Part shown: in pieces, positions 1,893-60,730 of the stretch
How the letters are laid out: each line of letters starts with the position of its first letter
Numbering within the stretch: position 1 is the first letter of the stretch
NCBI RefSeq assembly: GCF_964355755.1
Contig: NC_092678.1
Span: forward strand, 7,226,922-7,290,921
Length of the DNA stretch: 64,000 bases
Source: Antedon mediterranea
Taxonomy: Eukaryota > Echinodermata > Crinoidea > Comatulida > Antedonidae
Direction: 5' to 3'
Translations under genes and position numbers: made by a program
The notes under the pieces: model-generated
Database searches by the model: none
The model's input: only the letters and a program-made list of their open reading frames with translations
What the model was told of the DNA's origin: nothing

Positions 1893-3062
1893 TTATAAAG
1901 ATTCAATCAATCATTCAATCGTTCGATTTATATAGCGCCATTCCAACATTCATTGCTCATGGCGCTGTAAAAAATCAGAAAAGGTGAGTTTTGAGTAGTG
2001 ACTTAAAGTGACTCAATAATGATGTGTGTTTAATGTTCAAGGGTAGGTGGTTCCAGAGCCTAGGTCCAGCAACACTGAAAGTCCGATCTCCCCAGCTATG
2101 TTTGCTCCTTGGAATGTCCAGTAGCACCTGATGACTAGATCTTAGTTCTCGCTTTCCCTTCTTGACTGTCAACAATTCTGAGAGATATTTTGGAGCGCAA
2201 CTATTTAGGCATCGGAACACCAGCAGCAGGATCTTAAATTTAACACGTGACTCCATGGGTAGCCAATTTAACTCTTTGAACAATGGTGTGACGTGATCAT
2301 ACTTCTTGGCACACATCACCAAGCGAGCTGCCCAATTTTGCACCTTCTGGAGAGTCCGCAACTGCTTCTTTGGCAGACCATACAGCAGGGAATTTCCCAT
2401 ATCAAGCCGACTGGTAACAAAAGCATGTACAATCTGCTCTGTTGCACAATGGTTCAAGTAACGTCTGATCTTGGCGATGTTACATAAATGGAAAATAGCA
2501 GATCGGCAGATTTTGTTGATATGTGATTCCATGGTCATTTTACAATCAAGTTGTACACCAAGGTTACGAACTTCTGATGATGGATTGACTAGTACGCCAC
2601 CAATATGTAGGCCATCAAACCGGATCTTTTTTCTCTGCTGAACAGAACCAAATAGGATCACCTCGGTCTTTTTATCATTTAGCTTGAGGAAGTTGGAGCC
2701 CATCCATTTTCTAATCTCAGCAGTGCATGCTTCTAACCGTTTTACGGCGGACAGAAACTTGGTCTGGCAAGGCTTGACAGAAACATAGATGGAAAACAGC
2801 TGTGGTCCAAGCACCGAACCTTGTGGGACGCCACATAATAGAGGAAGGTCATCTGAAACATCACCAATGCAGACGGCCTGGGTTCTGTTCCTTAGATATG
2901 ATGTGAACCAAGACAATGCTTGATCTCTTACCCCAATATCATGTGACAATCTATGAAGAAGCAGTGAGTGATCTACTGTGTCAAAAGCAGCCGATAAGTC
3001 TAGTAAAACTAGAATAACAAGTTCTTGATTATCTATTGATGTCAAAACGTCATTCTTAAAGA
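1893..3062 (-). mobile_element. 5'-truncated CR1/L2-like non-LTR retrotransposon
   Basis: This is a LINE fragment read on the minus strand. It holds the C-terminal two thirds of a reverse transcriptase, a short 3' UTR with an inverted 'cagcgcca...tggcgctatataaat' tail (about 1928-1975) and a terminal array of gattgaat-like octamers (1893-1928), typical of CR1/L2-clade elements. The 5' side stops abruptly near 3062, where the frame runs into a stop, as expected for 5' truncation during target-primed reverse transcription. Confidence 0.85.
1975..3062 (-). pseudogene. Reverse transcriptase fragment lacking its YADD motif
   Basis: The frame is uninterrupted for about 360 codons. RT motifs seen: [12 protein letters not shown], the [10 protein letters not shown] turn, then the thumb and C-terminal region ([22 protein letters not shown]). 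Between GPQLFSIY and SVKPCQ about 25 residues normally present in this family are missing, and they include the Y/F-A-D-D catalytic loop. The protein cannot be an active polymerase although the frame is still open. An alternative-start ORF begins at 3045, but no ATG start is expected in a truncated LINE. RT origin is certain; clade assignment (CR1/L2 versus other Jockey-superfamily lineages) is less so. Confidence 0.88.
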
Positions 3063-3181
3063 CTTACTGTCCACGTACATTATAACTATAACTTTAAAAG
3101 TATGTGTTATTTATTTAGTTTTATCTACATTTTGTATATGCTTACATACTTTTTCAAATAGCTTCAATAATATATAATAAT

Positions 3182-12440: not shown

Positions 12441-12454
12441 TAATATTGCTGTAA

Positions 12455-13365
12455 AATCCTGACATAACATATCTGCACTTAATTGTACAAAGAGGCACTC
12501 TAACATTCTGACATAACATGTCTGCACTTAATTGTACAAAGAGGCACTCTAACATTCTGACATAACATATTGCACTTAATTGTACAAAGAGGCACTCTAA
12601 CATTCTGACATAACATATCTGCACTTAATTGTACAAAGAGGCACTCTAACATTCTGACATAACATGTCTGCACTTAATTGTACAAAGAGGCACTCTAACA
12701 TTCTGACATAACATATCTGCACTTAATTGTACAAAGAGGCACTCTAACATTCTGACATAACATATCTGCACTTAATTCTACAAAGAGGCATTCTGACATA
12801 ACATATCTGCACTTAATTGTACAAAGAGGCACTCTAACATTCTGACATAACATATCTGCACTTAATTGTACAAAGAGGCACTCTGACATAACATATCTGC
12901 ACTCATTTTACAGAGAAACTCTACCCTCCTGACGTAAAATATCTGCACTCATTTTAAAAAGAGGTACTCTAAGTTCTAACACTCTGACATAACATATTGG
13001 CACTCATTTTACAGAGAAACTCTACCATCCTGACAACATATCTGTACTCTTTTTAAAAAGAGGCACTCTAACATTCTGACATAACATATCTGCACTCAAT
13101 TAGACAAAGAGGAACTCTAACATTCTGACATAACATATCTGCACTCAGTTAGACAAAGAGGCACTCCAACATTCTGACATAACATATTATCTGCACACAT
13201 TTTAAAAAGAGGAACTCACATAACATGTTTGCAATCATTTTACAAAGAGGCACTAACCAACTCTAAGATCCAGGCATAACATACCTGTTCTTATTGCATA
13301 AACAGAAACTTTAACAACCTGAAATAACATATCTGCACTCGTTGTACAAAGAGGCACTCTAAACA
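12455..13365. repeat. 49-bp satellite array (~19 units)
   Basis: The unit is ctgacataacatatctgcac followed by ttaattgtacaaagaggc and actctaacatt. The first third is nearly homogeneous (12455-12900). The remainder is increasingly diverged and has internal deletions. It lies directly downstream of the ATPase-fusion stop codon, so it would be 3' UTR or flank of that gene. Because 49 is not a multiple of 3, reading frames rotate through the array and give spurious 64-67-codon ORFs. Confidence 0.9.
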
Positions 13366-13372
13366 TGTTTAT

Positions 13373-13870
13373 TTACAGCATACCATCATTCATTGTACAA
13401 AGAGAAGCTCTTATCTCTTGGAAAGATTCACCACTAGCAGTGGTCTTTATAACCCGTTTTCTAACTTCAACTTGAGGATTACTTCCCTTCAAATGCGCAT
13501 CAATAGAATCGGCCAAATTATGATGAATTATCCAGCAGTCTCGTTCTCGAAGTTCAATAAGAACATCAAATGAAGGATCTCGTTGACGCTCCAGAACCGT
13601 TTTGGTCTGTGATTTTCGCGTTTTTACCTCTTCTTTGCCAAGAATAACACTATGCGCGCTACCGGCAATTGGTCGCAATGACGGATTACGATGAATATCT
13701 GCGCAGGATTGTCCATGTGCTGTTGCTATGAGCTGTACGCCTCGTTCAGCAATGCTCTGCGCTGCTTGTGCTTCTTGGATGCTACCCATCTCATCAATGA
13801 TAATGACCTCTGGGTTGTGGTTTTGTACAGCTTCAATCATAAATTTGTATTGTTCACTCCTAGGATGTAC
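13373..13870 (-). CDS. ATPase fusion, last coding exon (Walker B)
   Basis: 498 nt including the TAA stop. It encodes the Walker B VIIIDE, the sensor-like AERGVQLIATAHG, the TKTVLER signature and an 80-residue tail. AATAAA overlaps the stop codon (13373-13368). The last ten codons resemble a diverged unit of the adjacent satellite. Confidence 0.9.
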   Translation of the reverse strand, partial: VHPRSEQYKFMIEAVQNHNPEVIIIDEMGSIQEAQAAQSIAERGVQLIATAHGQSCADIHRNPSLRPIAGSAHSVILGKEEVKTRKSQTKTVLERQRDPSFDVLIELRERDCWIIHHNLADSIDAHLKGSNPQVEVRKRVIKTTASGESFQEIRASLCTMNDGML

Positions 13871-16800
13871 CTAAAATAGACATAGAGGAGGTTGGTGTCA
13901 AGAAACAACTACTCTGTTTAAGTGATGACATCAGAAATGTTGTCTAGAAACCTGGTTTACCGACAACGTCTGACACCCACCTAGCTTTCGACTTGCGACA
14001 ACCTACTGTAGAATCTAATGTCATCTGCAGACAGTGGGCCATGTGTCTTCACCCGATTCCTCGACACTGCTTCTAGGTCCAGGTAAAGACTACTGACACA
14101 ATGTGCGCAGGTCCTCACAAATCGCAAAAAACTCCCTATTGTTGTTACCAACCCTAGTAAATTTTATTTCTAAACTAAAGCTCTGTCTACACTATCAAAC
14201 TACTAACAAAAACTATGGTAGCGCTATACCCAAATATGGTAGTGATATGACATCATCATGTCCATATATGGACACATTTTTTTGTTGCATAAAGTTTGAT
14301 AGTGTAGACAGACCTTTACAATTCAAATGAATGTTATTCAATTCAATTTCTAATGAATGTCAAGCTCTGTCTACACTATCAAACTTTATGTGACAAAAAA
14401 ATGTGATGACATCATATCACTACCATATTTGGGCATATCACTACCATATTTTGGCACATATCACCATTTTTTTGCTAAACTATTTTGATAGTGTAGACAG
14501 AGCTTTAAAATAATCAGTATTAAAATATATCTATTTTATTTGTCATTTACCTGAAGTCGTCTAGCACTACCCAGAGAATCATGCAGACTATCCCCATCTC
14601 CACCAATCTGTGAACAATTCAAAACAATAACGAATAACTATTAATGTATAAGTAATGACGAGTATGGGTTCGGTCTGTCATGGTCATAGGCAAGATGAAT
14701 TGCCTTATACTCAAATTGCCATGGCCTTCAGATGGGACGTAAAGCTGTTGGTCCAGTGTACATACAGTTTTAAAGAACTTAAACTTTAAAAAAAGGCCTA
14801 CGGTATCTGTATTAATATTAATCCTCAAGAAATTCGGATTAGGTATACGGACCCATGGCAGAGATGAACCAGTGCACCAGGGTTACCCCCTACTCTTCCA
14901 AAAGATTAAATGGGTTCTGTGAACACGAGCCAGATGCGAGTCCTTATTCGAGAATATTTTTTCTACCACCAAGGAGAACTTGAACTATTGTGCGAATTGT
15001 ATTGTTAAAGTTTGTGGCTCACTTGCTCTGTGATGGCAAGTGGTGCAGTGTTTTGGATGTTGGACTACTGATAGTGAGATCGTGGGTTCGATTCCAATGC
15101 TCGTCGCATTGCTTGTACAGTATCCTTAGACAAGACACTTTACTTACATTTGCCTCTCTCTACCCAGGTGTCAAAATGGGTACCTGGTAAGGTCAAGACA
15201 CAACTTTGCGCTCATTACTAGCTGCATTACGTGTTTGATCCAAGAATGACAGGGTTAATATTATGTACAGCACTTTCACAACATTATGCGCTTTATAAAT
15301 CCAGGATATTATTATTATCCACTCAGCCACACAATTTGTCCCCAGTGTGTTTGGCTGGTGTGCTCACTGAATTTCCAGTTACGTACAGTATGAGAATTAT
15401 TATATTTACATATAATCATTACCTCATTTGACGTGTCAACAATCATCACTCGTCGTCTCATGACATCACTGAGCAGTCTAGCATATTCCCGCAGGACTGT
15501 TGTTTTTCCAACACCTGGGCTTCCAAGTATAAGAACAGATTTGTGGCTTGCCACAATGTCAAATATCATATCTAAGCAGCCATAGATGGCACGTCCAACT
15601 CGTGCAGTCAGCCCTACTGGTTTTAATTGCTTGTTTACAATGTTGCTGTAGTAGTAAAAAGTTTTTAAATGAGTTGTTTTTCTAGTTATTATTCAATATC
15701 ATGCACCAGTACTACATAGGAAAAAAGTTATCCAAGTTGTGAATATATGAACATTTTGTGCATAGATGGATTCAATTTGTTCTAGGCATTGTTGTGAAGA
15801 CACTGCTTTGGTGGATTGCATAGTGCACAGACAAATGAACGCCATTTGGCGGCAGATACGAAATGAAGAAACCCTTTAAAGAGATTGCAATATGTCGTCC
15901 ACATTTGTGCGTAATTCAGCTCAGTCCAACAGGCTGCAAAACACATTCCCACAAGAATGTTGAATTCAAGTTATAGCATTCACCGCGATATTGAAACTGC
16001 AAAAAATATTTTACCGTTCTTTTGTTTCAACCGATTGTAAACAGTATGCGTAACATGATTCGAGGAGTACGCATCAAAATGATTGCAACTTCGTTGAAGA
16101 TACGTATGCAATACAGTTTTCAGTTTTATTTTATTTTTATTTTTATTTTATTTTATTTTATTTCATACTCATCCAACAGCGAGTAACCCGCCAATTACAG
16201 GATGGATAAACTATTTAGTTCCTTTCAATTCCCGAAATGTAGCACATGTTCATCTCGAAGCATTTCAACAGTACCTTACACGATGAAGAGTGCCCTCTAT
16301 GCCTGCACGTCGATCTGATGAGAACTCTGTAAACTTGTTGCCAGAAAAAATGTCCTCAACTTGATGAGAAGTAATGACTGTGTCAAGTAAATACCTTGTC
16401 ACACACTTACCAGATTCCAGTTGATAATATCTATATGAATAATCAAAATGTTATTTTTTTAAATTAGTTGTTTTTCTATTCATTATTTAATATCATTAAT
16501 TTATCCATTCAGCGAGCTGGCTCACCCCGAGTTCCTGATACTATTTATAAATAAAAAAAACTTGATTTGAACTCGCAAGCATATATGTTCGCGCAAAGTT
16601 GATATACATATTCAACCCTACAACCCTAAAGTATTAGGATTAGTATCACAGATATACATAGTATAGCATAGGTGACATTAGATGACCATCCATATTCAAA
16701 TTTTGATATAGTGAACAAATAATATCTGAAACTATTATTAAAAGGTACTGTAATTTTCTGAGCAAGACACATTTTTGAAACACACCTTGCATGCGGCTTC

Positions 16801-19800
16801 CTTCCAATGTCTAACACGACCTCAATTAGAAGATCAAGGGAATATATTCCATCTTGCTGATGGAGAAAAAATAGCACCTCTTTGATTTCATCTGGAAAAA
16901 CATCCAGAAATAACTGCATATCTCTTTGATTATTCTCTTTAACACTGTCCAGCATTTTCTGGGTTATGTTTGTTGGATTGACAGATTCCAAATCCTAGAA
17001 GAACCAGAATTTTGATGTTGTTAAACATTAAAAAAACAAGGGCTGGCATTTATCAATCTCTTTGCCAGATTGTTAGGCTTTTTATTATTATGGGTACCTG
17101 GTAATATGTTGGTTACTAGCTGTAAAGTTACGGAAATATGTTTCCACACATGGTTTGATAAAAAAAAAATGACATATTATAATAATGCTTAGAGGTTTTG
17201 AGCATTAAGCATTATATGAAAGCTGTTAAAAAATATGAGTTCCCAGTTAAAATTGTGTTTATTATAAAACCTCAACCTTTTCATTAGCAACCACTTATTT
17301 TTGGATAGTGGGGCATTGTTTGATACATATAGGAAATTGACCAATGTAAATTTGAGGCATTTTTCAATCAACATATTTTACTACAAGTAACGAAAATGAA
17401 ATTTTTTTACATAAAAAGTCATTGAAAAAGAAATTGGAAAAAGTCCAGTAGAAGCGCCACTGTTTAAAAAGGGGCTTATTCTGTGGGGTTACTTTCAATG
17501 TTGTTGCCAAGGTTCGTATATTGTTAAACCTGGAGCTAACCTTTAAGTAAAATTTCACACTGTACCTCACTACCCTCTGGAAGAAAAAATGCTATGCCGT
17601 TGTTGTCAAACTGAAGGAAACGTGCTGTGTTCTCTTTCACCAACTGAGAAACCGATGTAGAAACTTTGTTTCGTTTGCTCAGTGGAACAGCTTGTGAAAA
17701 CTTTTGTTGGCTTCGAACTTCCTTGAATAAACTGCCCTCTTGTGGAATTTTCTTAACATCTGTAGCGCTATACCCTGATGCAGCCCTTAGTGTTAAAAAT
17801 TTGGGATGACCAGTTTCTTTGATATCTCTGGCAACTTCTAAAACTGCTCTGCAAGCCTGACCAAAACTGATTAAATCTTCAGTAGTTCTTAGAAGTCTAA
17901 TGAAAATATGAAATAACTGTAATAAAGAAACTATTATACAGTATGTTTACATACATTTATGTTGTCTGTTTAGTTGATACCAAAGAACTTATAACACAAG
18001 AATCTCCTGTTCGTCCGAAGCGCGTAACAATTTCGAAAGGCATTGTGGGATAGAATAGAGCTATGGGTAGCGCCATTGTGAGCCATGGAGTAGGGTGCCC
18101 GCATCAAATTAGAAAGTCAAAATCATAGAGGGGATCTGCTAATACTCTAGGGGGGATAGAGTAATTGACTGAGGAGTAGGGCGCCCGCATCAAATTAGAA
18201 AGTTAAAATCATAGAGGGGATCTGCTAATACTCTAGGGGGGATAGAGTAATTGACTGAGGAGTACGGCGCCCGCATCAAGTCAAAATCATAGAGGGGATC
18301 TGCTAATACTCTAGGGGGGTAGAGTAATTGACTTCCTAGTTTGGAGGGGGCGCTGCTCCATGCTGTGAAATGGCGTTGCCCAGTTTGACCTTTTAACCAT
18401 GTACTTCCGATACTGTGTTTTGAATGCAAATTGAAGAACAGGAGATTCTTGTGTTATAAGTTCTTTGTTGATACCAACAGTTCCAAACCTGTATATATAA
18501 CATCTATTTACTTTAGTATTCTATTGCTTGTTTACAGTATATTTTGTACTGTTTCTAATAAATGTGAATACAAAATTGACTTAAAATAAATACCAGTAAA
18601 AAGATTCAATTTATTGTCCAATCATATATATAAGGAATGAGGCAGTTTGATGTTACCAGCAGAAAGGTAGTTTTACAATAGAAACTACTTTTTAAATTTA
18701 ATTAAAATTAATTTCCTAATTATTTCAATCACTTTTGATCAAAAAGTGAATGGAAGTGGGTCTTCCCATTTCCAATTAACAAATAATTCAGGAAAATTAA
18801 GGCTTTATCTGTGATGTGAAAACTGTGTGGGATAATAATTAGAAAGTAACATACTTTTTATTATTTAATGAAAAACAAAGACTACTTTTTTTTACCAATG
18901 GTACTGTATGAACTTACGTAAGTAAATTACGGTAGACAGCTGGAACCATTGTTGTGACAATGTTTTTCAGATGAGCCTCTTTTGGATAGGTGACATTTAA
19001 GAATTCGCAAACCTGCTTGAAAGTTACTGCAGCTATTTGTTGTTTTGTAAGAATTTGGAAACATATCTGTGGAAAAAAAATCATAAAAAGAAAGTTAGTC
19101 TTAGGACTATTTTGTCTTAGACCATGTTGAGGTTGTTGTCCATAGACTATTGTGTCTAAGGCAACGTTTAGCTTGTCTTAGGACTCCCCATGTTTGGGTA
19201 TACATGTAGGTTGTCTCAAACCATGTTTAGGCTGTATTAGACCATGTTTAGGCTGTCTTAGACCATGTTTAGACTGTCATAGACCATGTTTAGACTGTCT
19301 TAGACTATATGTTTAGGCTGTCTTAGACCATGTTTAGACTGTCGTAAACCATGTTTAGACTGTTTTAGAATATATGTTTAGGCTGTCTTAGACCATGTTT
19401 AGACTGTCGTAGATTATGTTTAGGCTGTCTTAGACTATATGTTTAGGCTGTCTTATACCATGTTTAGACTGTCGTAGACCATGTTTAAGTTGTCTTAGAC
19501 CATGTTTAGGTTGTCTTAGACCATGTTTAAGTTGTATTAGACCATGCTTAAGTTGTCTTAGACCATGTTTAGGCTGTCTATGTCTATGTTTACTAGGTTG
19601 TCTTAGACCATGCTTTTAAGCAACTTAAAAGTTGTCTTAGACCATGTTTAAGTTTTTCTTTTTAAAGTTTGCTAGTGTAGATAAGTGTACCTTTGTATCA
19701 AAAATGTATGCAAGTTGTATCTGAAACTGGTCATACAGTGCTTTGGACATCAACCTGACATCATGGCAAACCTGTAAACAAATGTTGAAATTGAGTTTAT

Positions 19801-20845
19801 CAAATAACTTTTATACTAAATAATGGTTTTAGTTTTTCACACGTTCCTGAATCTGTTTTTAAAAAAAGAACTTGAGTAAATGTAGGCCTACCTTCAGAAT
19901 ATTTGGATCTTCAAGAAGTTCCTTAAGGCACTCTTTTTCCTTAATATGGAGATGGCCATCATTCCCATTGGGGAATTCAATAACACAAACATCTGCATCC
20001 CATGATGCCATGCCAATCCCTGTAATAACATATTTGGTGTTGTTGTAGAATCCCTCTGTATGTAAGGCAATGATTGGCTGTTCATAGTCGCGCTTGTTCA
20101 TCGTAAGAAATTTAGAAACTACATCTGATGTTGAACGGTCAACTACATCAATACTGTCACGTATATCCTGATGATCACTGACATCATCTGGAGAAACAAC
20201 TTGACAATCACTGGTGCCGTTGTGCAGTAGAAGCTGGTTACTGACAGATGAAACGACATCAGACTGCAAGTATTGCTGTTCTTGTGTCAATGCCTTTTTT
20301 TCAGTAGCTTTAGTTGAGCTTAGCACCGAGACATTTTTCTTGTTGCTTATATGAAACTCTTTCAATGAGGTCAAAGATTCGCGAAAACTTTCAATCGTTG
20401 TTCCCAGCCCAGGTTTATTTTGACCTTTTGTTTTTTTACAGTAGATAGAATAAAGCTCTTCCAATTTTACAAATTTGTTGGGACGTTGAAGAATTATGGT
20501 TTTTAACTTAACAATGTTCTGTTGCTTATTATCAAAGCCGTCTTGTACTTTTACAACTTGTTTTGGGGGTTTTCCTGGCACTTTGTTAATTTGTTTGATA
20601 TCACTTTGAAGAAGTTTGGCATTGGTTATTTCCCTCCCTTTGACGTTAAAATATTGTGGAAAGAACTTCACGCTTACCAGAAATTCGGCAGAGTTAAAAC
20701 CAAACATTTTAAGAATTGTAAAATTTGGTTTAATGGTGTTACGAAATCTACTGTATAGTTGATCAATCGTATTTGGACCCGTCTGAATTAGTATGTTCTG
20801 TATTGCAACAATATTTGCATTTCTTAGCTTGATTTCGTTTGACAT
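13373..20845 (-). CDS. Egalitarian-like exonuclease-fold / SpoIIIAA-Ycf45 ATPase fusion protein
   Basis: Nine coding exons (minus strand): 20845-19892, 19771-19691, 19067-18918, 17896-17566, 16994-16786, 16430-16275, 15645-15423, 14607-14551, 13870-13373. All junctions are GT-AG and phases agree except for one extra base in the third exon; corrected length is 885 aa. Residues ~10-67 and ~105-172 look like two helical winged-helix modules of the Egalitarian/EXD1 N-terminal kind. Residues ~255-400 look like a 3'-5' exonuclease fold (LHTEG, VCHDVRLMSKAL, FDTK), with His262 where DEDD nucleases have the first Asp. Residues ~560-830 are a full SpoIIIAA/Ycf45 module: pre-ATPase region (IEVVLDIGRKP, DRRAGIEGTLHR), Walker A GSPGVGKT (668-675), VDTSNE, Walker B VIIIDE (D746/E747), AERGVQLIATAHG and the TKTVLER signature. 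I infer an RNA-binding, ATP-driven protein; substrate unknown. The ATG at 20845 is preceded by an acceptor at 20882, so a noncoding first exon lies upstream. Confidence 0.85.
14176..14318. mobile_element. 143-bp MITE in last intron, copy 1
   Basis: The ends TAAAGCTCTGTCTACACTAT and its inverted match frame an interior with cccaaatatggtagtgatat. Same family as 14362-14505. Confidence 0.75.
14362..14505. mobile_element. 144-bp MITE in last intron, copy 2
   Basis: Terminal AAGCTCTGTCTACACTATC inverted repeats. The interior is in opposite orientation to copy 1 and already carries two 'catatcactaccatatt' units. This is the family whose interior is amplified in p38 intron 5. Confidence 0.78.
14551..14607 (-). 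CDS. ATPase fusion, coding exon 8
   Basis: 57 nt, 19 codons (IGGDGDSLHDSLGSARRLQ), matching the short I-A/G-GDGD segment that follows the TSNE motif in Ycf45/SpoIIIAA proteins. Phase 0 on both sides. Confidence 0.87.
15035..15320 (+). mobile_element. SINE family A copy
   Basis: tRNA-like head (gtggtgcagtgttttggatg; gggttcgattcc), body with 'tttgcctctctctacccagg', 'gtgtttgatccaa', and the 3' end gcgctttataaat followed by (att)n. It lies in the intron between coding exons 7 and 8 of the ATPase fusion gene, antisense to it. Confidence 0.78.
15423..15645 (-). CDS. ATPase fusion, coding exon 7 (Walker A)
   Basis: 223 nt. It encodes GLTARVGRAIYG, the P-loop GSPGVGKTT and the VMIVDTSNE strand, ending in phase 0 before GTAATG. 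Confidence 0.9.
16110..16215 (-). mobile_element. SINE family B 3' fragment and (TTTTA)n
   Basis: A (tttta)n tract and 'gccaattacaggatggataa' match the 3' end of the SINEs at 48395-48560 and 52650-52850. No tRNA head remains. Confidence 0.5.
16275..16430 (-). CDS. ATPase fusion, coding exon 6
   Basis: 156 nt. It encodes the Ycf45-type pre-ATPase segment ending SSDRRAGIEGTLHRV. Two GT donors lie close together; only the inner one (GTACTG after 16275) leaves phase 2 as exon 7 requires. Confidence 0.83.
16786..16994 (-). CDS. ATPase fusion, coding exon 5
   Basis: 209 nt, ending in phase 2 before GTGTGT. It carries the start of the SpoIIIAA/Ycf45 homology (FPDEIKEVLFFL ... LIEVVLDIGRKPHAR). Confidence 0.85.
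17566..17896 (-). CDS. ATPase fusion, coding exon 4
   Basis: 331 nt, entered in phase 2 and left in phase 0 before GTACAG. It encodes the end of the exonuclease-like region (LLRTTEDLISFGQACRAV) and a linker to the ATPase module. Confidence 0.82.
17981..18467. mobile_element. 487-bp TIR element with internal ~83-bp triplication
   Basis: Perfect ~30-bp terminal inverted repeats (caaagaacttataacacaag ...) sit between direct repeats TTGATAC (17974-17980 and 18468-18474). Inside are three tandem units of 'cgcccgcatcaaattagaaa ... ggggatctgctaatactcta'. No transposase. The 7-8-bp target duplication fits a hAT-type MITE. It is inserted in an intron of the ATPase fusion gene, so the 79-codon ORF inside it is not a gene. 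Confidence 0.85.
18918..19067 (-). CDS. ATPase fusion, coding exon 3 (frameshifted)
   Basis: 150 nt, where 149 would keep frame. The first part reads ICFQILTKQQ in the frame set by exon 2. From about 19020 the sensible reading (VCEFLNVTYPKEAHL), which matches the phase of exon 4, is in another frame, and an in-frame TAA lies just upstream of it. The switch point is a run of four T (minus strand) at about 19020-19023. This is either a 1-nt mutation or a sequencing/assembly indel. Confidence 0.7.
19105..19665. repeat. Minisatellite, ~21-22-bp unit
   Basis: The unit gtcttagaccatgtttaggc is repeated about 25 times with substitutions and a few 24-28-bp variants (gtcttagactatatgtttagg). It fills most of the intron between coding exons 2 and 3 of the ATPase fusion gene. 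Confidence 0.9.
19691..19771 (-). CDS. ATPase fusion, coding exon 2
   Basis: 81 nt, 27 codons, phase 0 at both ends. It encodes the second exonuclease motif region (VCHDVRLMSKAL ... FDTK), with the conserved H-D retained. Confidence 0.85.
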
Positions 20846-20882
20846 TTCTGACAAGTTTGTGTAAATATAATGTCTATGAAAT
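19892..20882 (-). CDS. ATPase fusion, exon with start codon
   Basis: The 3' acceptor (ttttcag) ends at 20883. The coding part is 20845-19892 (318 codons, phase 0) and ends before GTAGGC. It encodes both N-terminal helical modules, a Ser/Asp-rich linker (~180-245) and the first half of the exonuclease fold. An in-frame TTG nine bases upstream of the ATG is not a credible eukaryotic start. Confidence 0.85.
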
Positions 20883-34000: not shown

Positions 34001-36635
34001 TGAATGAAATACGTTCAGAAAACTTTGTAATTCATTCTTCAGGGCCTAAAATTACAGTTAATAATTAGTTCTGTTCGGCCTTTATTGTAATAGGGCTGAA
34101 CTTAAATTTATTATTGTAAAGGCACAAGCGCAATTTCTGTGAGGTTTCTTGAAATTGTTAACTAAACTAAAATTATGACAGTTCTCTTTTTTACACTGTC
34201 AACAAAAACTAGATTTACCAAGAATCAGATGCTCTTATTATTGTCACCGGATTTACATCGATTATGGCTATACTGTAATAATCTTTATTTCTGCCTGTTT
34301 TAATTTGATCCAAACCATGACTGGGGTAATACTGTTCAGCGCATAGAGGTTTTACAACATTAGGCGCTATGTAAATCCACGATATTATTATTGTTCTTGT
34401 TCTTATTATATTTATTGATATTAATATTGTTATTATTATTGTTATTTCATTCGTACAGTTCGGGTGTTGTACATCTCATCATGACATTTTGACACTACTA
34501 TTATTACGGCTTATTATATTATTATTTGCTGTGTTTCAGGTAATCGGTACTTACTTGTATTTACGGAGTACCTTACCAAATGGGTGGAAGCTGATGCAAT
34601 TCCAGATAAATCTGCTAAAACAGTGCTGAGATCTTTTATTGATTTTGTCTGCAGACATGGAACACCTTCTATATTGATTACAGACCAGGGTAGAGAGTTT
34701 TGTAATGAGCTGAATGACAGCTTCTGTAAGCTGATTGGGGTAGACCACAGAGTTGCCTCACCATACCATCCTCAAACAGGCGGGCAAACGGAGCGCTTTA
34801 ACAGAACACTTTGCACAATGCTTATGACGTTGACCAACGCAGACCAAAATGACTGGGATATACAACTCCCATACGTGTTGTTTGCCTACAGAACATCCGA
34901 GCACAAGTCTACGAAATGTGACCCATTCTCATTAGTTTACGGTAGAAAGGCTGTGTTGCCTGTAGAATTACGTATTCCCATCGTTTCGTCTAATAAAGAT
35001 GACATATCCGGAACTGTTCCTTTAAAAATAAGAGTGGACGCTTTTTTGAAACTCAAAGATTCAAGGAGAAAGGCATCAGAAAATATCAAAAAAGCACAGA
35101 AAAAGCAAAAACATTATCATGATGCTGGTGTTAAAAGCAACACGTACTATGCAGGAGATCAAGTGCTCTTGCAGAATTCCAGAAATTTGTCAAGAAAGGG
35201 AGGCAAACTTAATGCTCGATGGACTGGTCCATATATTATAGAAAAAGTCCTCACTCACAATACATATCGACTAAAAGGAAGAAGGGCTATTGTTAACGGA
35301 AACAAGATCAGACATTACAAGTCCGATAAAACAACCTCTTTGAACTGTCCATCATCAAGCACTAAACAGAAATGTAATACCAATGATAAGCATCTCCCTC
35401 CAAAGAAACGAAAGCGAACGCCAGACATCCCACCTGAAGTAACGCACCATGATAACATACCTACATCCAAGAATGGTGATATCACACCGGATGATCACAT
35501 TATTAACATACCTACATCCAAGAATGTTGATGATAACGATAACAGACCTACATCCAAGAATTATGATATCACACCGGATGATCACATTAACATACCTACA
35601 TCCAAGAACGATGATATCACACTGGATAATCACGATAACATACCTACATTAGACAATGATAATGTCGCACCGGATGATGACCATGACAACAGTAGGCCTG
35701 TATCTGATAGTGATGTGGTATACCTCAACACGAAAACTTCAAGAAAGTTATTCTTTCCTGTCGATGCCAATTGGCAGCTTGAAAAGGCAGCACCATTTGG
35801 TATCAATGTCAAAAATTTTCACAAAACTCACTTAAAATGTGAAATGGACAAGGCAGCCAGGCCTACTAAAGTTGTTAATATGAGAGGGGACGGCAACTGT
35901 CTTTTTAGGGCTTTGAGTTATATTCTCTTTGGTGTCCAGAACTACCATGTAGTTGTACGGGATTACATACTAAACTATATGTCCATGAACAAAAACCTAT
36001 TTGAAAAAATTGAATCCAGATCATTTGAACGATACGTGGAAGACACGAGAATGGGGGAATATGGGACATGGGGTTCGGACATCGAAATCATGGCATTTGC
36101 GACCATGTCAAATACGAATGTTTATGTTTACAGTAAATATGGAAGAAGGAAAGGGCTTCCACATTATGAATGGTTGAAATATGCACCAATAAGTAATCAG
36201 TTTGGTGATTTAGTATCTGAAAGAAACATCTACCTATCAAACTTATGTGCACACTTTGAGCCTGTCCTGGATGTAGACAAGAAAACTTATGACGCTGAAT
36301 TAAAATACACTCGTACACCATACGCACCAATCAAAAACCACCTTGCACGGAAATACTGGGATATTGTATCCGATGTGACCCTCAATGCTGCTCTGGTAGA
36401 TAATTACGAAGATGAAGCGGTAATGCGTTCCGAAGGCATTATGGACGTTATATACGTATCTGAATTCACGGACACACATTATGACATTGAAGCAGTCAAC
36501 CATCTAAAAGATGATATCGATCCAAATATATTCAATTTGCTTTGTGACATGGAACATTTCCCGGAAAGGATTCATCAGAGCAACAATGAAGTACCTGGAC
36601 AATTATATGTTGATTCATACAACGTCACTCTTTAA
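30811..36635 (+). CDS. Ginger1-type integrase-OTU protease (intact, 3 exons)
   Basis: Exons 30811-31058, 33707-33906 and 34540-36635 join in frame (847 codons + stop). Order: a Gypsy-type N-terminal region and H2C2 zinc finger (HKQAHGGHLG in exon 1, CDQC in exon 2), the DDE core with D139 (GMDIVGPL), D198 (ITDQGREF) and E234 (GGQTERF), exactly 35 residues between the last two, GPY motif at 379-381, a Lys/Thr-rich linker with repeated PTSKN units, and an OTU cysteine-protease domain with D600-G-N-C603 and H721 (AHFEP). DNA joining and deubiquitination are expected from the families. The frame is clean although the gene sits among decayed copies, so it is either a recent transposon or a domesticated gene. 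No TIRs like those at 21.2/25.7 kb were found around it. An upstream in-frame ATG at 30739 adds a hydrophobic stretch and is less likely. Confidence 0.88.
32186..32965. mobile_element. Single arm of foldback element in intron 1
   Basis: It shares the outer 'aaccacctgcagcttatgta', 'acgaaaattgcatcccagct', 'aatcatgtgcaaatgcatc' and the cgaccacctctcgtaag repeats with 28295-28799, but no inverted partner follows. Confidence 0.75.
33707..33906 (+). CDS. Integrase-OTU exon 2
   Basis: 200 nt. The acceptor follows a 13-T tract (33688-33706). It encodes the zinc-finger cysteines (CDQC) and the first catalytic Asp, then donor GTAAGG. The H2C2 finger is thus split by a 2.65-kb intron. Confidence 0.88.
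34245..34400 (+). mobile_element. SINE family A 3' part in intron 2
   Basis: 'tttgatccaaaccatgactg', 'gcgctatgtaaatccacgat' and (att)n match the SINE body and tail; the tRNA head is missing. Confidence 0.6.
34540..36635 (+). CDS. Integrase-OTU exon 3
   Basis: 2,096 nt from the acceptor tttcag. It carries the rest of the DDE core, GPY/F, the repetitive linker (35449-35690) and the whole OTU domain; stop TAA at 36633-36635. Confidence 0.92.
35449..35690 (+). repeat. In-frame minisatellite in linker
   Basis: About five units of roughly 50 nt (ataacatacctacatccaag; gatatcacaccggatgatca) encode IPTSKN-DITPDDH-type repeats between the integrase and OTU domains. Unit lengths stay multiples of 3, which implies selection on the frame or recent expansion. 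Confidence 0.85.
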
Positions 36636-37685: not shown

Positions 37686-37912
37686 TAATTCTAAACCGCC
37701 CGGTAATATACTGAAATTTAATTAATTAATTTGAAACGATAAAGATGAGGAAATCTGTGAGAATGAGTTAAAGTCGCCCCAACCGAGACTCGAACTCGGA
37801 CCGCCTGCTTGATATGCAGATGTCCTAACCGTTAGACCACTGGGGCTTTCACGGTTCGAACTCGATTGGATAGCGACTCTTTAACATTCTCGGCGTGGTA
37901 CGGCGGAACAGC
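37686..37912 (-). mobile_element. tRNA-headed SINE-like repeat, copy 1
   Basis: On the minus strand: 'gttccgccgtaccacgccg' leader, a 71-nt tRNA-like cloverleaf, and a body ending 'ccgggcggtttagaat'. The same order is repeated in the next copy. A headless copy lies at 25200-25310. Confidence 0.75.
37776..37846 (-). tRNA. tRNA-like cloverleaf, anticodon AUC (Asp codon), probably SINE head
   Basis: All four stems pair: acceptor GCCCCAG/TTGGGGC, D-arm GTC-TAACGGTTAG-GAC, anticodon stem TCTGC/GCAGG with loop ATATCAA, T-arm CCGAG-TTCGAGT-CTCGG. The anticodon in standard position is AUC, unusual for tRNA-Asp (normally GUC). Being embedded in a repeat argues for a tRNA-derived element rather than a working gene. 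Confidence 0.5.
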
Positions 37913-37944: not shown

Positions 37945-38180
37945 GAAATAAATTCCAAACCGCCCGGTGATACACTGAAAATGATTTAATTAATTTTTGA
38001 AACGATAAAGATGAGGAAATCTGAGAGAATGAGAAAAAGTCGCCCCAACCGAGGCTCGAACTCGGACCGTCGGCTTGATATGCAGTTGCCCTAACCATTA
38101 GACCACTGGGGCTTTCATGGTATTGTTCTTTAACTCGACCGGATAACGACCCTTTAACATTCTCGGCGTGGTACGGTTGG
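37945..38180 (-). mobile_element. tRNA-headed SINE-like repeat, copy 2
   Basis: Direct tandem copy of 37686-37912, about 260 bp apart. Both copies are flanked by 'ctttaacattctcggcgtgg', so the duplicated unit includes more than the tRNA head. Confidence 0.75.
38042..38112 (-). pseudogene. tRNA-like segment, degenerate anticodon stem
   Basis: It matches the 37776-37846 cloverleaf in acceptor, D and T arms, but the anticodon stem (CTGC / GCCG) no longer pairs fully. Confidence 0.5.
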
Positions 38181-39069: not shown

Positions 39070-42000
39070 GTAAACTATTTATTCTTCTTGTCTTTACTCG
39101 TACAAAATAATATAACGGTCGCTAATTGGAAGTGTTTAAACTAAAGTGATCTATAATTGGAAGAGGACCCGTACAATTACTTGTTTTTTATCACATGATT
39201 ATAAACTATTTATTCTTCTTGTCTTAACTAGTATTTATTCTTCTTGTCTTTATTCATACAAAATAATATAACGGTCGCTAAATGGAAGTGTCTTAAAGTA
39301 AAGTGACCTTTAATTGGAAAAGGACCAGTACAATTACTTATTTTTTATCACATGATTAAAATCTATTTATTCTTCTTGTCTGTACTCATACAAAATAATA
39401 TAACGGTCGCTAATTGGAAGTGTCTTAAAGTAAAGTGATCTTTAATTGGAAGAGGACCAGTACAATTACTTGTTTTTTATCACATGATTAAAATCTATTT
39501 ATTCTTCTTGTCTGTACTCATACAAAATAATATAACGGTCGCTAAATGGAAGTGTCTTAAAGTAAAGTGATCTTTCATTGGAAGAGGACCAGTACAATTA
39601 CTTGTTTTTTATCACATGATTAAAATCTATTTATTCTTCTAATTGTCTGTACTCATACAAAATAATATAACGGTCGCTAATTGGAGGTGTCTTACAGTAA
39701 AGTGACCTTTAATTGGAAGAGGACCAGTACAATTACTTATTTTATATCACATGATTATAAACTATTTATGCTTCTTGTTTTTATTCATAAAAAATAATAT
39801 AACGGTCGCTAATTGGAAGTGTTTTAAAGTAAAGTGATCTTTCATTGGAAGAGGACCAGTACAATTACTTGTTTTTTATCACATGAATAAAATCTATTTA
39901 TTCTTCTTGTCTGTACTCATACAAAATAATATAACGGTCGCTAAATGGAAGTGTCTTACAGTAAAGTGACCTTTAATTGGAAGAGGACCAGTACAATTAC
40001 TTATTTTTTATCACATGATTAAAATCTATTTATTCTTCTTGTCTGTACTCATACAAAATAATATAACGGTCGCTAAATGGAAGTGTCTTAAAGTAAAGTG
40101 ATCTTTCATTGGAAGAGGACCAGTACAATTACTTGTTTTTTATCACATGATTAAAATCTATTTATTTTTCTAATTGTCTGTACTCATACAAAATAATATA
40201 ACGGTCGCTAATTGGAGGTGTCTTACAGTAAAGTGACCTTTAATTGGAAGAGGACCAGTACAATTACTTATTTTATATCACATGATTATAAACTATTTAT
40301 GCTTCTTGTTTTTATTCATAAAAAATAATATAACGGTCGCTAATTGGAAGTGTCTTAAAGTAAAGTGATCTTTCATTGGAAGAGGACCAGTACAATTACT
40401 TGTTTTTTATCACATGATTAAAATCTATTTATTCTTCTTGTCTGTACTCATACAAAATAATATAACGGTCGCTAATTGGAAGTGTCTTACAGTAAAGTGA
40501 CCTTTAATTGGAAGAGTACCCGTACAATTACTTATTTTATATCACATGATTATAAACTATTTATTATTCTTGTCTTTATTCATACAAAATAATATAACGG
40601 TCGCTAAATGGAAGTTTCTTGAAGTAAAGTGACCTTTAATTGGAAGAGGACCAGTACAATTACTTATTTTTTATCACCTGATTAAAATCTATTTATTATT
40701 CTTGTCTGTACTCATACAAAATAATATAACGGTCGCTAATTGGAAGTGTCTTAAAGTAAAGTGATCTTTAATTGGAAGAGGACCAGTACAATTACTTGTT
40801 TTTTTATCACATGATTAAAATCTATTTATTCTTATTGTCTGTACTCATACAAAATAATATAACGGTCGCTAAATGGAAGTGTCTTAAAGTAAAGTGATCT
40901 TTCATTGGAAGAGGACCAGTACAATTACTTGTTTTTTATTACATGATTAAAATCTATTTATTCTTCTAATTGTCTGTACTCATACAAAATAATATAACGG
41001 TCGCTAATTGGAAGTGTCTTAAAGTAAAGTGATCTTTAATTGGAAGAAGACCAGTACAATTACTTATTTTATATCACATGATTATAAACTATTTATGCTT
41101 CATGTTTTTATTCATAAAAAATAATATAACGGTCGCTAATTGGAAGTGTCTTAAAGTAAAGTGATCTTTCATTGGAAGAGGACCAGTACAATTACTTGTT
41201 TTTTATCACATGATTAAAATCTATTTATTCTTCTTGTCTGTACTCATACAAAATAATATAACGGTCGCTAATTGGAAGTGTCTTACAGTAAAGTGACCTT
41301 TAATTGGAAGAGGACCAGTACAATTACTTGTTTTTTATCACATGATTAAAATCTATTTATTCTTCTTGTCTGTACTCATACAAAACAATATAACGGTCGC
41401 TAATTGGAAGTGTCTTAAAGTAAAGTGATCTTTAATTGAAAGAGGACCAGTACAATTACTTGTTTTTTTGTCATATGATTAAAATCTATTTATTATTCTT
41501 GCCTTTATTCATACAAAATAATATAACGGTCGCTAATTGGAAGTGTTTAAATTAAAGTGATCTTTAATTGGAAGAGGACCAGTACAATTACTTGTTTTTT
41601 ATCACATGATTAAAATCTATTTATTCTTCTTGTTTCTATTCATACAAAACAATAATAACGGTCGCTAATTGGAAGTGTTTAAATTTAAGTGATCTTTAAT
41701 TGGAAGAGGACCAGTACAATTACTTGTTTTTTATCACATGATTATAAACTATTTATTATTCTTGTCTTTACTCATACAAAATAATAAAACGGTCGCTAAT
41801 TGGAAGTGTTTAATTTTAAGTGATCTTTAATTGGAAGAGGACCAGTACAATTACTTGTTTTTTGTCACATGATTAAAAACTATTATTACTCTTGTCTTTA
41901 CTCATACAAAACAATAAAAATGGTCGCTAATTGGAAGTGTCTAAACTAAAGTGTTCTTTAATTGGAAGAGGACCAGTATAATTACTTGTTTTTATTACAT

Positions 42001-42110
42001 GATTATTATTATATTGTTATTTATTCTTCTTGTCTTTATTCATACCAAATAATATAATGGTCGCTAATTGGAGGTGTTTTAAGCCAAGTTATCTTTGAAA
42101 AATAAAAACT
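39070..42110. repeat. 134-bp satellite array, ~23 units
   Basis: Each unit contains 'aatataacggtcgctaattgg', 'aagtaaagtgatcttt', 'ggaagaggaccagtacaatt' and 'tatcacatgattaaaatct'. Marker variants (attcttctaattgtct; atgcttcttgtttttattca) recur at about 39635/40165/40965 and 39768/40300/41093, spacings near 4 and 6 units, showing block duplication. Units near 41.6-42.1 kb are the most diverged. It ends about 480 bp before the p38 start codon. Confidence 0.93.
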
Positions 42111-42589: not shown

Positions 42590-53722
<11,133 letters not shown>

Positions 53723-56613: not shown

Positions 56614-58615
56614 TTAAAAATCATCAAACCTCTTGGGTTTTCTCTTCTCTCTTACTGGTCTGCTTTTAACTATCATATTTTCATTACTCTTTGTTATTTT
56701 GTCACTTTGCTCAGTATCAACTGGCTTATTCTGTTCAGTGTTATCAATCTTACTGTTACCATTAACTTTACTAGTATCAATTTGTTTTAAATTATCATTT
56801 GGTGTGTTAACATTTGCTTCATTTACTCTTTCATTATAGGATCGAACATGTGTCGAATTCCTTTTGTATCTTACACCCTGTGGTGATTCAACCACTACAC
56901 TATTCCCTTTTTTCTCTATTACTACATATGGTTCTGTGTGATATGGCGTACTCATCTTGTCCCTCTGTGTCACTTTCACTAAAACCTTATCTCCTTTACA
57001 CACATCACTTTCCTTCGCACCTCTCTTCTCATCAATGTACAGTTTGTTCTTTAATTTAGACACGGCATCACGATCAGAAATTTCTTCGTCCATTATTGTA
57101 TTGTCATCTAATTCTGGCAATTTTGTACGCAACTTTCTATTCCACATCATTTCTGCTGGTGTCACTCCGGTAACACTATGTGGGGTTGTACGATATGCGA
57201 ATAGGTACACTCGTAATTCTTTTTTCCAGTCTTTTCCTTCAGCTTGCGCAATGCGAATTCTTTTCATTAGTGATCTATTTTGTCGTTCAACCTCTCCGTT
57301 TGCAGCTGGATGTAATGGTGTTACACGTCTATGTCTGATTCCATTTTCCTTCAGGTAGGTTTCAAACTCATTGGACACAAACTGGGCACCATTATCTGAG
57401 GTAATTGATTTTGGTATGCCATGTTGAACAAACATATTTTCAAGTGTGTCTATAATTTTCTCACTTGTGATTGTCTTCATTAAACTAATTTCATAATAAC
57501 GACTATAATAGTCTACCACCACTAGTACATTATCCTTCGATGGAAACGGTCCCAGCAAGTCAATCGAAATATCTTGCCATGGTCCTGTTGGTAGTTGTGT
57601 TGGCTGCAATGGTTCTGGTGCTGGCATCGAACTTGTTATCTGACACTCATGACATGTTTTAACATAGTCTTCCACATTCTTCTCCATCCCAGGCCACCAT
57701 ACCTTGGTTCTAAGCCTTTGCTTGGTTTTGACTATCCCCAAGTGTCCTTGGTGTGCTAATTCAATACACTGTAATCTATATTTTTCTGGAATTACAATCC
57801 TTCTGTTTCTAAGAATTAAATATCCAAAACATGCAAGTTCTTGTTGTATTGCATTATACTGAATCAAGTCTCTGTCCCATTTATCTGTCCGTATACTATT
57901 TCTCACTTTACTCAATTCAGGATCTTCCTTTGATGCCTCTTCAACTTCACGTGATGATAGTGCACATGGGGTTGCATTTGATGCTACCAATCGAATATAC
58001 ATCTCTGTGTCATCACTGTCATTATTCTGTTTGCCATCAGTTTCTATTGGTAACCTTGATAATATATCAGCAATGTTATTCTTACCAGGTACATACTTTA
58101 CTGTATAAGAATAGGACATAAGTCTCATCACCCACCTTTCAATCCGTGCATTTGGTTTAGACTTTGGTCCATACAGGCCTTCGAGTGGTTTATGGTCAGT
58201 TATCAATTCAAACTGTAGTCCATATAAGTAAACATGAAACCTTTCCATAGCCCATACCACTGCCAATGCCTCTTTCTCCGTTGTTGAATATTTCTTTTCA
58301 GTAGCTGATAATGTTCGGCTTGCATAACTTATAACTCTGGTTTCACCATTGTATTTCTGAATTAAAACTCCACCAATGCCTACATTGCTTGCATCTGTCA
58401 CCAACTGAGTACTTTCTGCATCTAATCTGAAATAGCCTAAACATGTTTCATTAGTTAAGCATTTCGTAAGTTTTACATAACTATTTTCTTGTTCAGACCC
58501 CCAATAGAAATTACAATCTTTTCGCACTAGTCGTCTTAAGGGTTCCGCAACTGTAGCTAAATTTGGAATGTATCGTGCTGAGAAGTTAACTAGACCTAAG
58601 AAACTTTTTACTTCT
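56614..58615 (-). pseudogene. Gypsy RNase H and integrase part
   Basis: This continues the polyprotein in another frame. RNase H motifs (TDASNVGIGGVL, STTEKEALAVVWAMERF), the integrase H2C2 finger (HQGHLG ... CHEC), the DDE core (SIDLLGPFP, TSDNGAQF, ANGEVERQN) and a GPY/F-like tail are all present, ending at a TAA at 56614. The ATG at 58527 is only the first Met in this frame, not a true start. Confidence 0.92.
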
Positions 58616-60634
58616 GCAGCTGTTTTTGGTCTCTTTGATTCTGTTTGCTGACAATATGTGACCCATGAATGTTATCTGTGATACAGAAAATTGACACTTA
58701 TCCTTGTTGAGAGTCAAATTCTTTTCTTTAAATTTCTCAAGCACTACACGAAGTCTGTCATCATGTTCAGTCTGTGTTCTCCCGTGTACAACAATGTCAT
58801 CTGATATGTTAGCTACACCTTCGCATCCACTCAGCGTCTGACTGATTACTCTTTGGTACTTTTCAGGGGCAGCATTTATCCCGAACATCAACCTTTTGTA
58901 GCGATAAAGACCTTTGTTAGTTATGAAAGTTGTGATGTTTCGTGATTGCTCATCTAATTCAATTTGGTGATAGCCGTAATTCATGTCTAATTTAGAGAAC
59001 ACTGTACTTTGATTCATTTCATACAACACTTCATCAACTGTTGGGATTGGATGCCTCTCCCTTTTAACTGCTCGGTTGGCCTGCCTCATATCTACGCAGA
59101 GGCGTATATCCCCATTTGGTTTTGGCACTACTATGACTGGACTTACCCAATCACTTGGTTCGTCTACCCTTTCAATTATGTCAAGAGATTCTAACTCATC
59201 TAATTTATCACTCACTTTATCTTTGAGACTAAACGGTATTCTATACATGCTCTGAACAACTGGTGTTAACTGTTCATCAATAAATAAATGTAACTTATAA
59301 TCTTTTAATTTACCAATACCTTCAAATACCTGTGTATACTTATCTTGTACACTATTTATCACTTGTGGTATTACAATATTTAACACTCCAAGCTTCATTG
59401 CAGTATCACCTCCCAACAAAGCAGGGCCTTTCCCTTTTAACACATATACATCTGCTGTTATTTTAGGCTCAGTATTATTACCTGTACCTTGAAAAATTGA
59501 CATGTTCGTAGTAAATTTTCCTAACAACTCTAATGGTTTTTCTGACCCATATGCATATAACTTTCTGTTTGTCAACTCAGATTTGCATTTAATTTTCTTG
59601 GATTTTAACTGTTGCCATAAATACTGATCTATGATATTAACTGTAGCACCACTATCAACAATCATTTCTACCTTATGTACATCCATACAAACATTTATCT
59701 TTGTAGTTTTAGAATTATTATTTTGTATACCAAAAGCATAGTCATCGTCTTCACTTCCATTTTGAACATTACTAATACCACTACTCTTTTTGTCTTTACC
59801 TAATTTAGTTTTGCAACAAATAGCAAAATGTCCCAAAATTTTACATTTATTACATTTCTTGTCTCTTGCAGGACAACATTTATCCTTAGCCAAATGTCCT
59901 TCTCTTCCACAGCGAAAGCATTTCCGGTTATCTTGTCTATCATTGAACTTTGACTTACTTGTTCTGTTAGGCCTACCACTTGAATTTCCAGCTTGGTACC
60001 TGTTTCTGCTCGTCGTGCTTGATCTTGACCATCTCTCATTCCTCACTGCATTCATGTTTGTTGTTTCCACTCCATTAACTTCTTGTGACATCTCCTTTGC
60101 TTGCTTCTCACTCATTTCAAATGTGCTAGCTATTGCTTTTAAATTGGTTAATTTCAAAGTATTTCCTTTTTCTAGCAATTTTAGTCTCAGTCTATTTGAT
60201 TTGCATTTTTCAATAACATGGTCTCTAATTAACTCATCAACATTCGCATCATCAAATTCACATTTTGCAGCCTGCTGCCTCAATCTGTTTATAAATTGGT
60301 GAATTGTTTCGTCATCACCTTGCGTCAGTTTTCTAAAACAATAACGCTCATACGGTACGTTGGTTTTCATAGCAAATTGTTTATTTAATGTGTTTACAAC
60401 AACATCATACTCATCTGTTCCGTTCTCCTCTGTTAAACAGTCATATATGTCCTGTACAGCCATTCCGGAGCAATGCAATAACAAAGCTTTCTTTTGGTTT
60501 TTGTCTACTACTCCTTTACCAGTAGCATATAATTCAAAACTGCGAAGCCATTTCTTCCACCGTTCAGCCGAAGCGTGCACATCGTGTGGATCATACGCAG
60601 CGATTCCAGTGATTTCAACGTTTACAGCGGTCAT
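58586..60634 (-). pseudogene. Gypsy Gag-protease-RT, frame ends in a frameshift
   Basis: ATG at 60634. Residues 1-200 are Gag (capsid-like), then two CCHC knuckles (about 239-274), a retropepsin motif VDSGA (326-330), and an RT domain (about 500-665) with LDMNYGYHQIELD and SDD in place of the usual F/Y-A-D-D; the Ser is common in this Gypsy lineage. The frame runs into a stop after an apparent 1-nt indel near 58625, inside the segment that joins RT to RNase H. Because the break is in the middle of a domain it is more likely a disabling mutation than a programmed shift. Confidence 0.9.
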
Positions 60635-60730
60635 CGTTACAACAGTATTAAAACAAATATATCGCCAAAAATTACAGTATTGAAACTTCTAATCACTTGT
60701 GGTTCGATATTCTCCTTAACTCGTCGCCAA

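Follow-up and report, generated by a model that had tools for sequence, protein, structure and literature searches.

A crinoid nuclear gene joining an Egalitarian-like front to a SpoIIIAA/Ycf45-type ATPase

The feather star Antedon mediterranea, a crinoid, carries, in the 64,000-nucleotide stretch analysed here (C9:7226922-7290921 of a 354-Mb genome in 18 contigs; hereafter the window), a nuclear gene whose single protein product combines a front half resembling Drosophila Egalitarian with a SpoIIIAA/Ycf45-type ATPase. We regard the identity of these domains and their union in one gene as very nearly certain. An initial annotation had proposed that a bacterial-type ATPase and an Egalitarian-type module are combined in one animal nuclear gene, and this core proposal is upheld by a significant profile match for each half and by the presence of the same fusion in a second feather-star genus, Anneissia. 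As to function, the chimera as a whole is best explained as an ATP-driven ring that would remodel RNA or ribonucleoproteins (RNPs), an explanation to which we give about an even chance.

A single gene of nine exons

Spliced by hand, the coding sequence extends from position 20845 to 13373 on the minus strand and yields 885 amino acids plus a stop codon. The nine exons assigned originally are all real, the eight introns are of the GT-AG type with compatible phases, and the two halves follow each other without a stop codon between them. The upstream boundary had been placed at 20882, which is indeed the first base past an upstream AG, whereas the actual ATG lies at 20845. A protein search returned a public entry, 'uncharacterized protein [Antedon mediterranea]' (P0001), with 100% identity over 100% of the spliced product, and the motifs by which the gene had been recognized (IEVVLDIGR, RAGIEGTLHR, GSPGVGKTT, VDTSNE, IIIDE and TKTVLER) are all found in the protein. 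Profile searches of both halves matched PF19568 (E = 4.7e-15) and PF01612 (E = 3.3e-6), each over its Pfam cut-off. The gene is made up as follows.

20600..20833, minus strand: Egalitarian-type winged helix (ED1-like), residues 5-82, sub-threshold for PF23713 (WH_Egal), predicted local distance difference test score (pLDDT) ~60-74
20318..20533, minus strand: second winged-helix-like module, residues 105-176, pLDDT ~90
19892..20845, minus strand: coding exon 1, residues 1-318, winged-helix modules 1 and 2 and start of the exonuclease-homology domain; identical to P0001
19691..19771, minus strand: coding exon 2, residues 319-345, exonuclease-homology core KVCHD...FDTK (first K from exon 1), aligned to Egalitarian and EXD1 chains
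18918..19066, minus strand: coding exon 3, residues 346-395, in which the exonuclease-homology domain ends, ~17 residues fewer than in Anneissia (tblastn)
17566..17896, minus strand: coding exon 4, residues 395-505, post-exonuclease helices and linker to the ATPase
16786..16994, minus strand: coding exon 5, residues 506-575, beginning of the SpoIIIAA/Ycf45-type half, EVVLDIGRKPHAR
16275..16430, minus strand: coding exon 6, residues 575-627, RAGIEGTLHRV
15423..15645, minus strand: coding exon 7, residues 627-701, GLTARVGRA, Walker A, VDTSNE
15498..15524, minus strand: Walker A GSPGVGKTT, residues 668-676, K674 shared by all 38 rows
14551..14607, minus strand: coding exon 8, residues 702-720, IGGDGDSLHDSLGSARRLQ
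13373..13870, minus strand: coding exon 9, residues 721-885 and stop, Walker B, His box, TKTVLER and a C-terminal tail without R3H match
13790..13795, minus strand: Walker B DE, residues 746-747, each shared by all 38 rows

That two neighbouring genes, or the two sides of an assembly join, have been taken for one is already disfavoured and, in our judgement, extremely improbable. Such an artefact would suit the intron at 17565-16995, which falls exactly between the two halves, and a gene model that was read from the DNA. The halves nevertheless fit in phase with no stop between them, and the linker that connects them is conserved between the genera (37-40% identity between Antedon and Anneissia over 91 columns). 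Over-splicing of two genes is unlikely because an identical protein is on public record and two Anneissia proteins carry the same fusion; the same join is therefore present in two assemblies, which makes a false fusion unlikely as well. Bacterial contamination was considered and rejected in view of the nine exons and eight introns, the placement on one of the contigs of the 354-Mb genome and the p38 mitogen-activated protein kinase (MAPK) exon in the window. The window contains no second copy of the fusion gene at E ≤ 0.01. Just past the 3' end of the gene lies a 49-bp tandem array (12452-13187, ~15 copies).

The two halves and their relatives

Residues 506-885 constitute the SpoIIIAA/Ycf45-type ATPase (PF19568, 55.9 bits with a cut-off of 27; the Anneissia proteins score 57.6 and 58 bits). 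Its four catalytic boxes are intact, K674 (Walker A), E701 (Asp box), D746 (Walker B) and H772 (His box) being invariant in all 38 rows; the roles of the boxes are those given in the accessible text of PMC2703783. The ATPase region is 45-53% identical to its relatives among the matches listed, and it shares both region and boxes with the SpoIIIAA/Ycf45 ATPases of cyanobacteria, Chloroflexota, Bacillota and green plants, which differ in being without the Egalitarian-like front. The equivalog for SpoIIIAA sensu stricto, TIGR02858, is not reached (77.8 bits versus a cut-off of 281.3), and the same cut-off is missed by all four scanned relatives, cyanobacterial, Bacillota, plant and algal. Nor is there the context of a spoIIIA operon: the gene has introns and lies on an animal contig, and the window also contains a p38 MAPK exon and retroelement-like frames.

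The bacterial relatives carry additional domains, PF25516 in five of five open reading frames (ORFs) scanned and R3H in four, the ORF from Prochlorococcus being without R3H at E ≤ 0.001, and neither domain occurs in the three plant and algal relatives scanned. In the crinoids, PF25516 and R3H are absent from the best 25 of the 32, 26 and 30 families for the three proteins, and they are likewise absent from the precomputed Pfam lists of these proteins. PADLOC gave three and two weak matches over the P-loop region, and phage records yielded two weak matches. In the viral collection IMG/VR, eight contigs (L081-L088) encode SpoIIIAA-family ATPases, those of L086 and L087 on very long branches.

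The predicted fold of the ATPase matches secretion and pilus ring ATPases as well as an archaeal Holliday-junction helicase; fold searches with the Antedon model cover essentially residues 536-873, so that the absence of Egalitarian chains from their listed matches is uninformative on the front half. Among the structural matches 5f4h ranks first, an archaeal RuvB-like Holliday-junction helicase that we take to be PINA, a PIN-domain ATPase. DNA branch migration activity is reported for PINA in the accessible text of PMC8775617. This match lends itself to the idea that the crinoid protein works on DNA, as a branch-migration or helicase motor of the PINA kind with a part in repair, recombination or transposon defence, in which the exonuclease fold would serve as a structure-recognizing head. 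We consider this quite improbable. Identity to 5f4h is 14%, and 5f4h has a PIN domain where the crinoid protein has Egalitarian-like modules.

The exonuclease-homology domain of the front half exceeds the Pfam cut-off of PF01612 at the E-value given above and is nearest to Egalitarian among solved structures. The front had been described as Egalitarian/EXD1-like, and this stands with a refinement: once the three crinoid proteins are combined in a profile, Egalitarian is clearly closer (4.8e-14 for 9uju and 3.8e-13 for 9rvy, positions 238-432, versus 4e-6 for EXD1), while the single sequence matches both equally at 0.0012. EXD1 (5fiq, 5fis) thus has a related exonuclease-like fold with a weaker profile match and, to our knowledge, no ATPase.

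The 3'-5' exonuclease fold recognized originally is homologous by profile but belongs to a pseudo-exonuclease, which in Antedon is short of ~17 residues of the fold. Two of the four DEDD carboxylates are lost in all three crinoid proteins, E264 and D322 being retained: the first aspartate is replaced by histidine throughout (H262, ALHxEG), and the last is asparagine or serine in Anneissia (LTYN, LTYS) and deleted in Antedon. Where Egalitarian reads LDCEG...AAGD, the crinoid fusion accordingly has LHxEG and N, S or a gap. Hydrolysis is very unlikely because two of the four acidic residues are missing. The ~17-residue deficit of Antedon is a clean gap in the DNA of exon 3; a missing exon that would fill it was sought and not found, tblastn passing through exon 3 as one gapped match. 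Beyond the exonuclease fold, where Egalitarian has its exonuclease-adjacent tetrahelical domain (XAD), helices are predicted at low confidence for residues 378-396 and 400-423, and the profile match to Egalitarian stops at 432.

Of the two helical modules noted previously both are present and look like winged helices; the first stays below the threshold of WH_Egal and the second has no convincing match in Pfam, where a weak LRR_4 was all that appeared. Winged helix 1 scores 15.8 bits on WH_Egal in Antedon and at best 22.8 bits (E = 1.4e-4) in Anneissia P0003, the cut-off being 27. Module 2, picked by eye and aligned, occurs once in Antedon, three times in Anneissia P0002 and twice in P0003. 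Its matches in the PDB are weak, to a C-type lectin at 7.2e-5 (in five pieces, none of which stands alone) and to forkhead FOXP1 at 0.023. With P0002 as query no additional winged-helix copies were found within the window.

Drosophila Egalitarian (9uju, 9rvy) has the same order of parts as is predicted for the crinoid front, winged helix or helices followed by a 3'-5' exonuclease-homology domain. According to the accessible text of PMC13186709, it consists of three LOTUS-like winged helices (EDs), the exonuclease-homology domain and, next to this, a helical domain; its ligand is stem-loop RNA, and the catalytic residues are dispensable for binding. It carries a C-terminal dynein-light-chain site, with no ATPase among the domains described there (PMC13186709). 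The crinoid fusion ends in its ATPase half.

Antedon also possesses a separate, unfused Egalitarian-like gene on the same contig (C9:25.79 Mb; locus L095, C9:25794900-25795407 plus flanks; exons joined by eye). It shares the Egalitarian-type exonuclease domain (PF01612 is present in the Pfam scan) but is far closer to fly Egalitarian than the fusion is (1.3e-34, with EXD1 at 4.7e-10), keeps its acidic residues intact (LDCEG, IHDCR, YAAVD) and aligns to the crinoid fusion profile with 27% identity over 154 columns. WH_Egal has no match in the piece of the gene that was read, and no PF19568-family ATPase was detected at the locus. A six-frame, exon-wise search of the 354-Mb genome placed PF19568 at one site, exon 9 of the fusion gene; this is a lower bound of at least one, because the search matched only exon 9 although the ATPase half comprises exons 5-9. 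The corresponding search with PF01612 gave seven places, several of them exons of one gene and two of them the pair at C9:25.79 Mb that belongs to the unfused gene, and missed the exonuclease exons of the fusion gene itself; further copies are thus possible. In the simplest history an Egalitarian-like gene would have been duplicated, would have diverged and would then have joined the ATPase, both the duplication and the order of events being our inference.

Distribution and origin

The same order of parts is found in two proteins of Anneissia japonica, P0002 (1219 amino acids) and P0003 (1158 amino acids), with 56% and 54% identity over 88-89% of the query. For both, the longest contig measures 594,708 bases, an indication, though no proof, that their genes are neighbours. 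In the whole-protein search 2173 of 8000 scored candidates reached E ≤ 0.001, and of the 120 listed none but the three crinoid proteins span the greater part of the query; the remaining 117 cover 34-40% of it, approximately the ATPase half. A search with the ATPase half, in a length window that leaves out the crinoid fusions, brought up no animal name among the 120 listed of 8000, many of the rows being nameless. A profile search with words taken from the front retained three of 7908 candidates at E ≤ 10, all of them crinoid, with a limited reach, as Egalitarian and EXD1 proteins were not returned. Diverged relatives in other animals are possible because the protein searches require shared five-residue words and a length window. 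A scan of genome contigs that used only the crinoid pair gave 36 pattern matches, no relative among them; with a broad alignment 80 of 577 loci were kept. The designation as an animal gene therefore holds in the sense of an animal nuclear gene and not for animals generally, the fusion having been seen in crinoids only.

The phylogeny proposed for the ATPase half was run, and no donor is claimed from it: the crinoid stem is long, the trees disagree on its placement, and cyanobacteria and other bacteria are both left by the approximately unbiased (AU) tests. A FastTree of 312 rows, used for distances only, put the nearest non-crinoid row at 1.49. The quick tree comprised 78 rows and the careful tree 66; L035 was dropped for an internal stop, and the twelve rows removed between the two trees were L086, L087, P0007 and L061, on account of their long branches, together with eight unnamed near-duplicates from the green group. 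The crinoid stem measured 2.9 in the quick and 2.4 in the careful tree, with no well-supported sister. In the quick tree an open fork joins the crinoids to green rows and to some of the bacteria, cyanobacteria being outside it (Shimodaira-Hasegawa-like approximate likelihood ratio test, SH-aLRT, 86). In the careful tree the branch uniting crinoids, green rows and cyanobacteria has 89/90 (not starred), and crinoids with green rows have 64/0 in the best tree. AU tests rejected neither crinoids with cyanobacteria (p 0.547) nor crinoids with other bacteria (p 0.407). These trees were taken without Ycf45 from Naegleria, oomycetes and red algae and without plastid-encoded Ycf45; in the accessible text of PMC3087521, an oomycete and Naegleria are listed with YCF45, and Dictyostelium, yeast and Monosiga are not.

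Single residues give a mixed picture. W833 (position 328 of the ATPase half) is common to 29 of 29 green, 37 of 37 cyanobacterial and 9 of 243 other rows, and at least one of these nine, P0058, groups with Prochlorococcus; as a sequence signature it leans towards Ycf45, other columns pointing elsewhere. Among the signatures, in columns picked after the alignment had been viewed, six favour green rows, three cyanobacteria and two others. In the five columns that split green rows and cyanobacteria from the rest, the crinoids go with green and cyanobacteria once, Antedon alone does so once, two columns agree with the rest and one with neither.

Elsewhere in the window, exons reading as a p38 MAP kinase (50647-53595, plus strand) include a 37-residue piece that matches MAPK14 at 6.5e-17, the 53.1-kb exon having been recognized by eye; beyond the first of them comes a tandem repeat with a 21-bp unit. 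Judged by eye, a 716-codon open frame (34485-36632, plus strand) reads as a retroelement integrase followed by an OTU-type protease-like region, two long overlapping open frames (56617-60688, minus strand) are gag-pol retroelement-like, and fragments at 1978-3063 (minus strand) and 48574-49194 (plus strand) resemble reverse transcriptases of the LINE (long interspersed nuclear element) type. A 2.9-kb tandem array (39232-42096) has ~22 copies of a 132-bp unit with 91% match. Two tRNA-Asp-like predictions (37775-37846 and 38041-38112, minus strand, anticodon ATC), which start 266 bp apart, are possibly tRNA-derived repeats.

A possible RNA-remodelling ring and its alternatives

By analogy with its structural relatives PilT, VirB11/DotB and PINA, the crinoid ATPase would assemble as a ring, around which the Egalitarian-like fronts would form a multivalent RNA-gripping collar. 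The dead nuclease fold would hold RNA without cutting it, and cycles of ATP binding and hydrolysis would remodel, translocate or release the bound RNA or RNP. The crinoid protein would then be the same kind of machine as its R3H-bearing bacterial relatives, equipped with an animal RNA grip, and its Egalitarian-like front may be a functional replacement of the R3H-type nucleic-acid-binding domain. Extrapolating from Egalitarian, we consider RNA a fairly probable ligand of the fusion protein; that ATP-driven remodelling of RNA or RNPs is its main job is put forward more tentatively, at somewhat less than an even chance. A role in the germline would likewise be an extrapolation from Egalitarian.

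Several observations weigh against this reading. WH_Egal stays under its cut-off in all three crinoid proteins, and when the PDB was searched with a profile of winged helix 1, Egalitarian chains were absent at E ≤ 10. In Antedon the exonuclease-homology domain is predicted with a pLDDT of ~45, three sequences covering it (that of Anneissia reaches ~40), and its RNA-binding surface may have been lost together with the ~17 residues. The ligand need not be a nucleic acid, because all three plant and algal relatives scanned are without R3H. SpoIIIAA of Bacillus subtilis, as described in the accessible text of PMC2703783, sits in a membrane secretion complex and not on RNA.

The last point also speaks for an alternative in which the front is only a tether that targets or oligomerizes the protein, for example via an adaptor or at an organelle, while the ATPase acts in a Ycf45-like manner on a protein or membrane substrate. 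This would fit an exonuclease-homology domain from which two catalytic carboxylates are gone, along with ~17 residues in the case of Antedon, and it would fit the pattern of conservation between Antedon and Anneissia, in which the ATPase half is the best-kept part (79%), far ahead of the winged helices and exonuclease-homology domain (49-54%) and the linkers (37-41%). On the other hand, the KVCHD...FDTK core of the fold and both winged-helix modules are retained across the genera, and the multiplication of module 2 in the Anneissia proteins suits multivalent ligand binding. We regard the tether as unlikely.

A more far-reaching version of the RNA-remodelling ring holds that a captured ring ATPase of bacterial or plastid lineage and a duplicated Egalitarian gene yielded an RNA-loading motor, that is an mRNA-localizing or RNP-remodelling machine without described counterpart. 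We think this rather improbable; if it were true, ATP hydrolysis on the RNA itself would replace the recruitment of BicD and dynein by Egalitarian.

Both protein families are known, and for the union of an Egalitarian-like with a SpoIIIAA/Ycf45-type part no description was found in the open-licence literature. In open-licence PubMed Central 'Egalitarian' and 'SpoIIIAA' are co-mentioned nowhere; by title and abstract, the open-licence papers on 'protein ycf45' concern plants and euglenophytes and none concerns animals, and none of the titles listed for Ycf45/SpoIIIAA concerns an animal's own gene. The crinoid gene also places in an animal nucleus a SpoIIIAA/Ycf45-type motor that is known from plastid lineages. 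The N-terminal domain of Egalitarian is not clear in deuterostomes according to the accessible text of a planarian study (PMC12579938), and a crinoid that has both an unfused Egalitarian-like gene and a fused relative would extend this family, a clear case for the exonuclease domain and a possible one for the winged helix. Because many bacteria add R3H and archaeal PINA adds a PIN domain to a related ATPase, the crinoid gene amounts to a natural experiment on the substrate of the motor.

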